From a virus: a DNA stretch of 31,613 nt. Both the position numbers and the translations under genes were made by a program. Under the pieces are notes generated by a model. That model ran no database searches. It was not told the origin of the DNA and saw only the letters and a program-made list of their open reading frames with translations. Position 1 is the first letter of the stretch. Every line of letters starts with the position of its first letter. The stretch is taken from positions 1-31,613 of IMG/VR virus record IMGVR_UViG_3300032241_000389; one strand, 5' to 3'. Of the stretch, positions 1,385 to 18,828 are shown one piece after another.

Positions 1385-1621
1385 ATGAAATTATCAGATG
1401 CACAATTAATTGACTTATTAGGTGGTTCTGGCAGAGTAGCCAAACTATGTAATGTAACTATGCCTAGTGTTACTCATTGGAGAACAAGAGGAATACCGCA
1501 TGGGCAGTTATTATTTATGGCAGCAACATTAGAGAAAGAATCTCATGGATTGATTAGAAGACAAGATTTGTTTCCTAAAAACTTTTGGTTAATTTGGCCA
1601 GAACTTGTGGATAATAATTAA
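1385..1621 (+). CDS. Cro/YdaS-like HTH transcriptional regulator
   Basis: A 78-residue DNA-binding protein. A helix-turn-helix is visible at about residues 6-40: SDAQLIDLLGGSGRVAKLCNV, then the recognition-helix region MPSVTHWRTRGIP. The C-terminal RRQDLFPKNFWLIWPEL motif is characteristic of small Cro/YdaS-type phage regulators. It is transcribed away from the leftward early operon with a strong GAGGAG site 5 nt before the ATG, the usual place for a Cro-like repressor of early transcription. No CI-type partner is visible. Its probable targets are the divergent gap at 1278-1384 and possibly the dyad at 1899-1915. Confidence 0.82.
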   Translation: MKLSDAQLIDLLGGSGRVAKLCNVTMPSVTHWRTRGIPHGQLLFMAATLEKESHGLIRRQDLFPKNFWLIWPELVDNN

Positions 1622-1635
1622 ATTTGTTGTATAAT
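1605..1635 (+). promoter_or_regulatory. Promoter for the structured small RNA
   Basis: A consensus TATAAT is at 1630-1635. A possible -35 TTGTGG is at 1605-1610 with a long 19-bp spacer, inside the 3' end of the HTH gene. The expected transcription start is about 1641-1643, which is exactly where the first RNA hairpin begins. That fit is the main support. Confidence 0.55.
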
Positions 1636-1640
1636 TTATA

Positions 1641-1770
1641 TATCAAGCGTGGAAACTTGATACAGATCGAAGACAAAGAACTCTCGCATGGGTTTGGTCT
1701 TTTTACATAAATTTTACTTCGATCTTGTTATGTAGAATTTCCACACCAAATCCAGCCGAGAGTTTTTTTT
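1641..1770 (+). ncRNA. Candidate pseudoknotted small RNA
   Basis: About 130 nt with unusually dense self-complementarity. Hairpin A is TATCAAG (1641-1647) with CTTGATA (1656-1662). Hairpin B pairs 1680-1686 with 1757-1763 and, after a 2x2 internal loop, 1689-1698 with 1745-1754. Hairpin C, inside B, is TACATAA (1704-1710) with TTATGTA (1728-1734). Two long-range pairings tie these together: loop A GTGGAAA (1649-1655) matches TTTCCAC (1738-1744), and linker AGATCGAAG (1664-1672) matches CTTCGATCT (1717-1725) in loop C. The G1692-T1751 pair is a wobble only in a plus-strand RNA. It has its own TATAAT box and ends in a T8 tract. I do not recognise a known RNA class; the function is unknown. Confidence 0.62.
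1680..1770 (+). terminator. Intrinsic terminator at the 3' end of the small RNA
   Basis: The outer arm of hairpin B (ACTCTCG at 1680-1686 with CGAGAGT at 1757-1763) is followed directly by a run of eight T at 1763-1770. This is the classical intrinsic terminator layout. It would end the small RNA and also read-through from the cro-like gene. Confidence 0.65.
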
Positions 1771-7159: not shown

Positions 7160-7318
7160 ATGCAAAACAATCTTAAAGACTTCTATCTAACATGGGTAGA
7201 GATGACAAAAGTAATACCTAGTAATCGTTTAGAAAGACAGCGTGGCGAATTATTAGCTCAAAAATTACTTGATTTATCAGATAAAATACAAGAAGAACTA
7301 CAAGCAGAATCTATCTAA
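7160..7318 (+). CDS. 52-residue small protein
   Basis: This starts immediately after the ART gene stop, with GGAG 6 nt before the ATG, so it is almost certainly translated. It reads MQNNLKDFYLTWVEMTKV, then RLERQRGELLAQKLLDLSDKIQEEL, a helical protein with no membrane segment. No family is recognised. A small partner or antidote of the ART-like protein is conceivable from the tight linkage, but nothing in the sequence proves it. Confidence 0.62.
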   Translation: MQNNLKDFYLTWVEMTKVIPSNRLERQRGELLAQKLLDLSDKIQEELQAESI

Positions 7319-7439
7319 TTGTTATATAAGTTAAATCTTTGATATATAATAACTTAAGTAAACTAAATATATTCTGTAAGTTATTGATTTATATGCTTAT
7401 CGTTAAAATTGATTAAAAACCATTTACCTATTATAAAAG
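7319..7439 (+). promoter_or_regulatory. Intergenic region before the terminase genes
   Basis: 121 very AT-rich bp. A TATAAT at 7345-7350 could be a -10 for the packaging and virion genes, but its -35 is poor. A stronger-looking pair, TTGATT (7409-7414), 17 bp, TATAAA (7432-7437), would start transcription downstream of the terminase ATG and so cannot serve it. The small terminase has no clear ribosome site. Confidence 0.35.
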
Positions 7440-16702: not shown

Positions 16703-17466
16703 TGAGTTTTATTACAGATGCAATTGGTGGATTATTTGGGACAAAGCAACAAGCTGATGCAGCGACATTAGCTGCACAACAGCAAGCTAATTCTCAAGCA
16801 CAAGGACAAGCTCAATTACAACAAAATTTAGCTCCTTTTGCTAACTTCGGTGCTTCTGCCATGCCTAATCTTGTAAAGTTATTAGGATTAGGTGGCACAG
16901 GTGGTGGATTTAGTTTTAACCCTCAAGACTTGCAAAATACTCCTGGTTATCAATTTACCTTAAATCAAGGATTAAAAAATACTAATAATGCGTTATCTTC
17001 TCAAGGTTTATTAGGTTCTGGAGCACAAGCAAAAGCCCTTTCAGACTACACAACAGGATTAGCAGGCAATACATATAATCAACAGTTTTCTAATGCTTTA
17101 AATTCATATAATGCTAATTTAAGTCCTTTAATGAGTTTATTAGGTATGGGACAAAACTCTGCTGCTGGAATTGGTCAAGGTGCTTATAATTCATCGGTTA
17201 ATGCTGGTAATGCAATTGCTCAAGGTACAATAGGTGCAGGTTCACAATCAGCTAATACAATGAATTCTTTATTAGGATTAACTGGATTAGCAAATACAGG
17301 ATTAGCTTCATATTCTCCTTCCGCTGGTTATCAAAGTGGACTATCTAATATTTATAATAGTTTGTTTGGCACAAGTAATCCTATCAATAGTTCTGGCGGT
17401 GGGGGTTTAGGAGCATCTTTAGGAAGTAGTTACTCTCCAAGTGGTGCTATTGGTTCGTTACTATAA
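16702..17466 (+). CDS. DNA transfer/ejection protein, gp7-like
   Basis: A 254-residue Gly/Ser/Ala/Gln/Asn-rich protein. The N-terminus is ITDAIGGLFGTKQQADAAT. Then PFANFGASAMPNLVKLLG, TPGYQFTLNQGLKNTNNALSSQGLLGSGAQAKALSDY-type and TYNQQFSNALNSYN segments follow, which are typical of phage DNA-transfer proteins. Length and order match P22 gp7 (229). It is likely packaged in the head and ejected to help form the DNA conduit. It lacks cysteine and has few charges, as expected for ejected proteins. Confidence 0.82.
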   Translation: MSFITDAIGGLFGTKQQADAATLAAQQQANSQAQGQAQLQQNLAPFANFGASAMPNLVKLLGLGGTGGGFSFNPQDLQNTPGYQFTLNQGLKNTNNALSSQGLLGSGAQAKALSDYTTGLAGNTYNQQFSNALNSYNANLSPLMSLLGMGQNSAAGIGQGAYNSSVNAGNAIAQGTIGAGSQSANTMNSLLGLTGLANTGLASYSPSAGYQSGLSNIYNSLFGTSNPINSSGGGGLGASLGSSYSPSGAIGSLL

Positions 17467-17475
17467 GGAATAAAA

Positions 17476-18828
17476 ATGGACTTAGCACAATCAACCAAAT
17501 TAAATCCTAATCAGATGATAACACCTGATTTTTCAAAGATTAATTTAAATGCACCTCAAGAGTTTGTTAAAAATCAACTTGGCATACAACAATTAGGGCA
17601 AGGTATTGCTTCTAATCAAGCTGTTTCTGATGCAATGAAACTAAGCACTAATCCAGAGACAGGCGAAATAGATCAAAATAAATTATTAAGTTTAATAAGC
17701 CAAGACCCTAGAGCTGCTTACAATTTGCCAACAATTGCTAATCAAGTTAATCAAAATGCAAAAAGCCAAGAAGATGCTAAACAGGCAAGAATAGATACTT
17801 CATTAAAAGTTTTAAATTGGACTCATGATCGTTTAGGTGGCTTAAGAGTAATGGATAATTTAGACCATTCTCATATTGTTGATACTTTAGCAAAAGGCGT
17901 ACAAGATAAAGTTTTAACTTTGCAACAAGCTCAAGACCAATTAAAAGATTTGCCAAAAGATAAAAAAGAATTACCAGCATGGGTTGATAAACACTATTTA
18001 ATGTCAGCAGATGCTAAAAAATTAATTGATTTATATGTTCCAACTGAAACAATTAAAGACCCGATTACAGGTGAACAAAAGAAAATACCAAAAGCTGTAT
18101 TTCTAGGATTACAAAAAAATACAAATCCTAACATAGATATTAATGCTCCAGTTACAGGATTGGCTACTTCTACTGAATCAGCATTAACAACAACTGGAAC
18201 AAATCAAGCTAATGCAGTCCAAGAACTTCATAATAATGTTTCTACTGCTCCTACTAGAATTAATATTTTAGAATCAGCTAGAGGAAACTTAGATAATCCA
18301 GATTTAAGCACAGGCCCAGGCGTTGAAGGTCGCAATCAACTTAAATCATTCTTTAATGCTCTTGCTCCAGAATATGCTCAAAAAGTATTTGGTAAAGACT
18401 TTAACGGTAATATTAAAGATACAGATGAATTTAAAAAGTATATGGCTTCTTATACCAACGCTGCTTCAGCTAACTTAGGTAGTGGAACAGATGCTAGATT
18501 AAACGCTGCGATTGCTGGTAATGCCAACATCAATATGAATAAGATGGCTAACCAAGACATTATCACTAAGACCATTGCAATTGAGAAAATGAATCAAGCT
18601 CAAGATTACGCTTGGAATAAGTCGGGTATTTCTCCTGATAAGTTTAATTCATGGCAAGCGGATTTTAATAAGAAAGTGAAACCAGAGGTATTTGCTTTTG
18701 ATTCAATGACTCCTAAACAACAAAAAGATTTTATTGAACGCAAGACTAAAGATGGTAGCTTAGGTTCGTTTAAAAAAGATTTAGTGAATATGGTTCAACA
18801 AGGTTTAATAGAACCTTCAGGAAGATAA
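17476..18828 (+). CDS. DNA ejection protein in the gp20 slot
   Basis: A 450-residue mainly helical protein of about P22 gp20 length (471) in the gp20 position, Gln/Asn/Lys-rich throughout. No enzymatic motif is visible. Segments LNPNQMITPDFSKINLNAPQEF at the start and NAAIAGNANINMNKMANQDI near 350 look like long amphipathic helices. An AAGGA ribosome site precedes the ATG. Assignment as an ejection protein rests on order, size and composition. Confidence 0.72.
   Translation: MDLAQSTKLNPNQMITPDFSKINLNAPQEFVKNQLGIQQLGQGIASNQAVSDAMKLSTNPETGEIDQNKLLSLISQDPRAAYNLPTIANQVNQNAKSQEDAKQARIDTSLKVLNWTHDRLGGLRVMDNLDHSHIVDTLAKGVQDKVLTLQQAQDQLKDLPKDKKELPAWVDKHYLMSADAKKLIDLYVPTETIKDPITGEQKKIPKAVFLGLQKNTNPNIDINAPVTGLATSTESALTTTGTNQANAVQELHNNVSTAPTRINILESARGNLDNPDLSTGPGVEGRNQLKSFFNALAPEYAQKVFGKDFNGNIKDTDEFKKYMASYTNAASANLGSGTDARLNAAIAGNANINMNKMANQDIITKTIAIEKMNQAQDYAWNKSGISPDKFNSWQADFNKKVKPEVFAFDSMTPKQQKDFIERKTKDGSLGSFKKDLVNMVQQGLIEPSGR

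Follow-up and report, generated by a model that had tools for sequence, protein, structure and literature searches.

In the late leader of phage lambda, the promoter pR′, the short 6S RNA and the terminator tR′ follow one another under the control of Q. The locus described here, which we call element A, presents the same order of promoter, short leader RNA, intrinsic terminator and operon, as judged from sequence features alone. Conserved pseudoknots are not a known feature of the lambda 6S leader, whereas in element A the RNA fold itself is conserved. In many cases element A also occupies the same genomic place as the lambda nutR/tR1 region, but no boxA/boxB-like element was noticed at it. 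Riboswitch-type attenuators likewise place a structured leader and an intrinsic terminator ahead of genes; in element A, however, the helices all fit the terminator state, and the downstream genes differ between loci. The C4 antisense RNA of P1/P7 and the CI RNA of P4, which end transcription early, resemble element A in being small phage RNAs of the immunity or early region. They act by pairing with a distant target, whereas no such target was found for element A in a search of the same phage for the words of its second pseudoknot (PK2). GOLLD and ROOL are large structured phage RNAs of unknown function that were recognised through covariation, GOLLD exceeding 800 nt in many members. Element A is far smaller and has no sequence or Rfam match.

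The put RNAs of phage HK022 offer a further comparison; together with the lambda leader–terminator nodes they are the nearest functional analogues. Like element A, they are cis-encoded structured phage RNAs heading early operons, one of them directly past its promoter (PMC9378689). Each put is ~70 nt long and consists of two adjacent stem-loops with no terminator (PMC9378689); the two copies, putL and putR, suppress downstream termination through the zinc-binding domain of the RNAP β′ subunit. Element A, in contrast, measures 100–165 nt, contains two long-range pseudoknots, occurs in one copy per genome and ends in a terminator, its architecture being a 5′ hairpin joined to a pseudoknotted long terminator stem. 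Put-like, RNA-only processive antitermination, in which element A, alone or with the RNA behind it, would bind the elongating polymerase and carry it past the terminators of the long rightward operon, draws on the location at the head of a phage operon and on the HK022 precedent, where putL lies just downstream of its promoter (PMC9378689). We consider it unlikely, since put suppresses terminators whereas element A ends in one of its own, the two RNAs differ in size, stem-loop number and copy number, and they share no sequence match. A repeated nut- or put-like site with several copies per genome was also considered and rejected, as none of 18 whole records carried two convincing copies of element A.

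The window analysed here is a 31.6-kb phage record from IMG/VR. All features lie on its plus strand. Element A follows a gene for a 78-amino-acid Cro/YdaS-like DNA-binding protein (1385–1621), which matches PHROG 8008 (DNA binding protein, 3e-9) and PHROG 35 (transcriptional repressor, 1e-7), with further Pfam matches to YdaS and P22_Cro that both fall below cut-off; the cro-like neighbour named in the initial annotation is thereby borne out. The −10 box of the putative promoter, TATAAT, occupies 1630–1635. The hairpin P1 (1641–1662, strands 1641–1647/1656–1662) begins 5–7 nt past such a box, that is, at the predicted transcription start, where the initial annotation had also placed it. The P1 loop, GTGGAAA (1649–1655), is complementary to TTTCCAC at 1738–1744, forming the first pseudoknot, PK1. 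The linker AGATCGAAG (1664–1672) is complementary to CTTCGATCT (1717–1725) in the apical loop, forming PK2. The terminator stem is composed of P2 (1680–1686/1757–1763) and P3 (1689–1698/1745–1754), and encloses the hairpin P4 (1704–1734, strands 1704–1710/1728–1734), to which the minimum free energy (MFE) fold adds three pairs. Since the 3′ strand of PK1 abuts that of P3, these two helices can stack. The terminator itself (1757–1770) comprises the 3′ strand of P2 and a run of eight T residues (1763–1770). Direct reading of the window recovers every one of the five helices that the initial annotation had proposed, together with its TATAAT box and T8 ending. The five are mutually compatible, as it had held, and each can form within one chain.

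Folding of positions 1641–1768 yields an MFE of −38.7 kcal/mol (z −5.4), a value that none of 200 shuffles equalled. P1, P2, P3 and P4 are all present in this fold. Apart from a few flanking positions, its unpaired bases are precisely those of the four pseudoknot strands, which lie in the linker, the P1 loop, the apical loop and at 1738–1744. The pair 1692/1751 within P3 is a G-U wobble that would become a C-A mismatch on the minus strand, in agreement with the strand preference originally claimed for it. The T-run, the −10 box, this wobble and the better z-score (−6.0 for 1636–1775 on the plus strand versus −4.5 on the minus strand) all identify the plus strand as the correct one. No mutually exclusive terminator/antiterminator pairing was noticed in the MFE and centroid structures; the folded state of element A is the terminator state.

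The layout as a whole was scored with a descriptor comprising the −10 box, P1, PK1, PK2, the terminator stem and the T-run. Element A scored 35.9 and the next-best site in the window 26.8. The score at element A was matched by none of 200 Markov shuffles of the whole window and by none of 2000 local shuffles in which the promoter and the T-run were retained. These shuffle controls, which the initial annotation had proposed, speak against an ordinary terminator with accidental complementarity, a reading that has nothing in its favour beyond the AT-rich context. Chance origin is already contradicted by the compensatory changes described below, and we regard its probability as negligible.

The initial annotation had set compensatory change in both long-range pairings as the test by which its proposal could fail; such change is found in IMG/VR relatives of element A, in which the layout is kept while the letters differ. 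We distinguish three types. Type I consists of five sequences, those of the window and of loci L163, L104, L189 and L186, with a mean column identity of 95% over the whole alignment. These sequences are nearly invariant outside PK2; within PK2, seven of the nine pairs have changed on both sides and all remain paired, an outcome reached in 0 of 500 shuffles. Type II, defined by the anchor TGCTCTCGCCAAGAGCCAAG, comprises 111 sequence-distinct elements on at least 120 contigs, 85 of which could be parsed. Among these 85, PK2 takes the form of 60 distinct helices with complementarity kept: a helix score of at least 8 is reached in 97.6%, versus 1.7% when the 3′ strands are swapped between elements. 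Counted by column, type II contains 18 pairs with double changes (186 cells; 0/500 shuffles). Its PK1 contact is an invariant TGGC/GCCA loop–loop match, with no variation to score.

Type III follows the pattern GTTGC-N-GTNNNNN-GCRAY and has no clear PK2. Because the MAFFT alignment of this type shifts PK1 by one column, PK1 was scored by exact complement; an exact complement to the element's own 7-nt loop is present in 87 of 88 elements, across 15 different loops that include the GTGGAAA of the window. Covariation in types II and III extends to P1 and the terminator stem. The compensatory changes in the proposed helices establish element A as a structured RNA. From the layout common to the three types, rather than from sequence identity, we infer that they form one family: each has a hairpin at the start of the transcript, a loop of that hairpin paired with a strand on the 3′ side, and a terminator.

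The hypervariability of PK2 within an otherwise nearly fixed element could suggest an RNA of the P1/P7 C4 or P4 CI kind, with an antisense or immunity function and PK2 as the specificity segment. Both PK2 strands, however, lie inside element A, there is no Rfam family match, and copies or complements of the PK2 words occur elsewhere in the same phage no more often than expected (5 seen versus 8.8 expected). PK2 thus finds no support as an antisense segment, and we judge this explanation very improbable.

The positions of the predicted transcript ends recur across the types. The distance from the −10-like box to P1 is 5 nt in all five type I elements, mostly 7 nt in type II and mostly 6 nt in type III, a count in which elements were selected for having a TANNNT box but not for the precise distance. 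Of 137 elements of types II and III, 46 have a perfect TTGACA upstream of the −10 box, at the unusual spacing of 15 nt (for example L118, L094 and L172). Many type III promoters also carry a palindrome, ACACAN..TTGTGT, between the −35-like TTGACA and the −10 box. As a repressor operator shared with other promoters it was rejected, for it is not repeated nearby except for one further match in L118. At the other end, a T-run of at least five residues accompanies the terminator stem in types I, II and III; the terminator pattern of our promoter/terminator scan cannot detect a hairpin with a loop this large. The promoter and terminator that the initial annotation assigned to element A thus hold as positions and features across types, but the promoter-like match in the window alone does not rise above chance.

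A search of Rfam 15, likewise proposed in the initial annotation, returned no match above the gathering threshold for the window or for the 18 related and 8 further loci examined, and permissive E-values added only sub-threshold chance matches; the earlier statement that the layout belongs to no named RNA class agrees with this result. We found no description of element A in the papers searched, though a subscription-only paper could have been missed. Element A is thus an undescribed small RNA gene, with an intricate knot and its own terminator, carried by many freshwater phages. Its existence is well supported; its function we infer. The strand-specific, doubly pseudoknotted unit at the core of the initial annotation stands; the regulatory role that it suggested, or an effect on proteins of the host or phage, is conjectural.

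The initial annotation had overlooked a second large structured RNA, element B, which almost always lies close behind element A. Element B is conserved and ~230–420 nt long; in the scored type II elements, the distance to it from the first T of the run is 17–25 nt. In the window it is of type B1 (1776–2017), begins with the hairpin TCGT-ACTCCAC-ACGA and is conserved into the start-codon region of the next gene (2005–2220; start possibly TTG at 2017), which encodes a 71-amino-acid protein assigned to DUF7696 by domain match. Among 101 type II elements with enough flanking sequence, 95 could be assigned by pattern to B2 (63), B1 (19), B5 (5), B4 (5) or B3 (3); five of the other six were inspected by eye and resemble the B1 family, B2 or B4 with point differences. 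B1 is present in more than 119 viral contigs, is not in Rfam, and, in 27 distinct sequences, contains a helix of six pairs in which one position can show as many as six pair types. B1, B3 and B5 appear to be related, with a loop contact that, read by eye, shows compensating changes (ACTCC..GGAAG, CAGGG..CCCAAG and TGACT..AGTCA). Two further forms, B2 (~300 nt; L291, L293, L294 and L295) and B4 (~420 nt; L298, L225 and L228), lie directly behind type II elements; neither is in Rfam, and both are apparently unrelated to B1. Type III elements also precede other structured-looking stretches. The varied A–B pairings indicate that A types and B types are freely exchanged.

An open frame in L074 at first suggested a protein, but in-frame stops or a 1-nt gap are present there in the window and L021, so element B is read as RNA rather than as coding sequence. 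B1 also occurs alone, lacking element A, in L170 and L145, where it immediately follows an HNH homing-endonuclease-like gene; in L170 the next gene is a probable capsid gene. In L121, another structured stretch (TGCTAGAA...TTCTAGCA) without a T-run occupies the position of element A upstream of B1.

Usually, element A heads a rightward operon, with a Cro/CII-like gene before it and a replication initiator gene (PHROG 9474) behind it. This initiator is the downstream gene in most related phages, while the window has the DUF7696 gene instead. Other copies lie between terL and the next gene (L212, L217, L226 and L310), before terS (L019–L021) or near capsid genes (L088). The large terminase genes of L217 and L285 carry an apparent intein-like insert (CCTPGT... 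in mid-protein). Seventeen of the 18 whole records contain one recognisable copy of element A, W01 and G017 only at a low descriptor score; in the remaining record, G001, the descriptor has no match and element A is visible by eye beside the single B1, so that the descriptor cut-offs miss or barely catch these three. G001 shares ~74–82% DNA identity with the window over most aligned blocks. Its A–B unit lies in the gap before terS (17098–17531), where the window has an 80-nt gap (7297–7376), its own unit lying beside the cro-like gene. The A–B unit has thus moved between operons in related phages.

Among named phage records, BLASTN returned good matches only to MW202674 and MW202484, both in element B, and MW202674 also carries element A; the remaining phage matches were weak and short and covered the promoter/P1 stretch. 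There were no matches in plasmid records, and ~800 genomes of Comamonadaceae and Burkholderiales contained no type II prophage copies. The only cellular record matching element A was a phage contig in a Comamonadaceae MAG (L204). No conserved antiterminator gene adjoining element A was recognised at the related loci.

Our preferred explanation, to which we assign a probability of roughly 0.4, is that element A represents a new class of phage leader RNA, which stands before an operon as a locked terminator or checkpoint and also releases a stable RNA of ~125 nt. The structure, its covariation, the positions of promoter and T-run, the single copy and the constant adjacency to element B are observed; transcription, termination, stability and any regulation of read-through are predicted. 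In this model, the single-copy RNA gene would supply the leading ~125 nt of a transcript. RNA polymerase would start near the −10 box where P1 begins, and P1 would seal the 5′ end. PK1, through the P1 loop, and PK2, through the linker, would clamp the 3′ half and keep the P2/P3 intrinsic terminator stem compact, so that the knot would favour or stabilise the terminator state. Most transcripts, whether from the element's own promoter or from the upstream cro-like gene, would end at the T-run, leaving a stable small RNA of ~125 nt with protected ends, while read-through would reach element B and then the operon.

The cis checkpoint is preferred because no promoter is visible for element B itself, which sits directly behind the terminator of element A; with B starting 17–25 nt after the start of the T-run, it would be transcribed only by read-through, unless there is an unseen promoter. 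This position, beyond the terminator as seen from the promoter, makes a cis checkpoint at least as likely as the free trans-acting RNA considered below. The location after a cro-like gene and before replication initiator genes at most loci, which is the place of lambda-type nutR/tR1, also supports it. Against the checkpoint count the lack of a recognisable antiterminator arm in element A, the occurrence of B1 without A in L170 and L145, the structure without a T-run upstream of B1 in L121, and the variable placement near terL, terS or capsid genes.

That variable placement is at least equally compatible with a trans-acting RNA gene. Here the end-sealed fold would bind a host or phage protein or titrate an RNA, the terminator would merely end the transcript, and element B would be separate. 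We rank this reading a close second, as possible though somewhat doubtful, because the unit is single-copy (at most one per genome in the 18 whole records), portable, and equipped with its own start and stop. Its position differs between relatives, being before terS in G001 where the corresponding site of the window (7297–7376) is empty, and the retention of architecture while the helix letters vary freely suggests recognition by shape. Placement directly before a B element, for which a free small RNA gene would have no use, and the preferred site ahead of the replication initiator argue against it.

A broader form of control is also conceivable, though we hold it only tentatively. The pseudoknot-locked terminator A and, 17–25 nt on, an exchangeable large RNA B would form a two-part, portable phage RNA control, present as one unit per genome and with its types recombining. 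Element A would gate B and the operon, and B would act on the passing polymerase or ribosome.

Covariation cannot separate intramolecular from intermolecular pairing, and PK1 or PK2 might instead join separate molecules into a ring or cage, as in packaging-RNA-like or GOLLD-like assemblies. Ornate phage RNAs can form homo-oligomers (PMC12286853), and some copies of element A adjoin terL. All of its helices are nevertheless possible within one chain, PK1 directly abuts P3, the element is far smaller than GOLLD or ROOL, and most copies lie away from terL; an assembling RNA is accordingly distinctly unlikely.

What we claim as new is the RNA class and the two-part A–B arrangement, rather than a mechanism. 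Element A constitutes a widespread, previously undescribed class of phage RNA in which the covariation of the fold, including both pseudoknots, is strong enough for the design of mutants. Natural swaps, 60 in PK2 and 15 in PK1, provide ready compensatory variants, and the structure prediction is directly testable. The element is often placed where temperate phages decide early transcription, yet apparently no protein is linked to it. Should elements A and B together make up a control unit, phages that lack a recognised N, Q or put may rely on RNA structure to run their operons.
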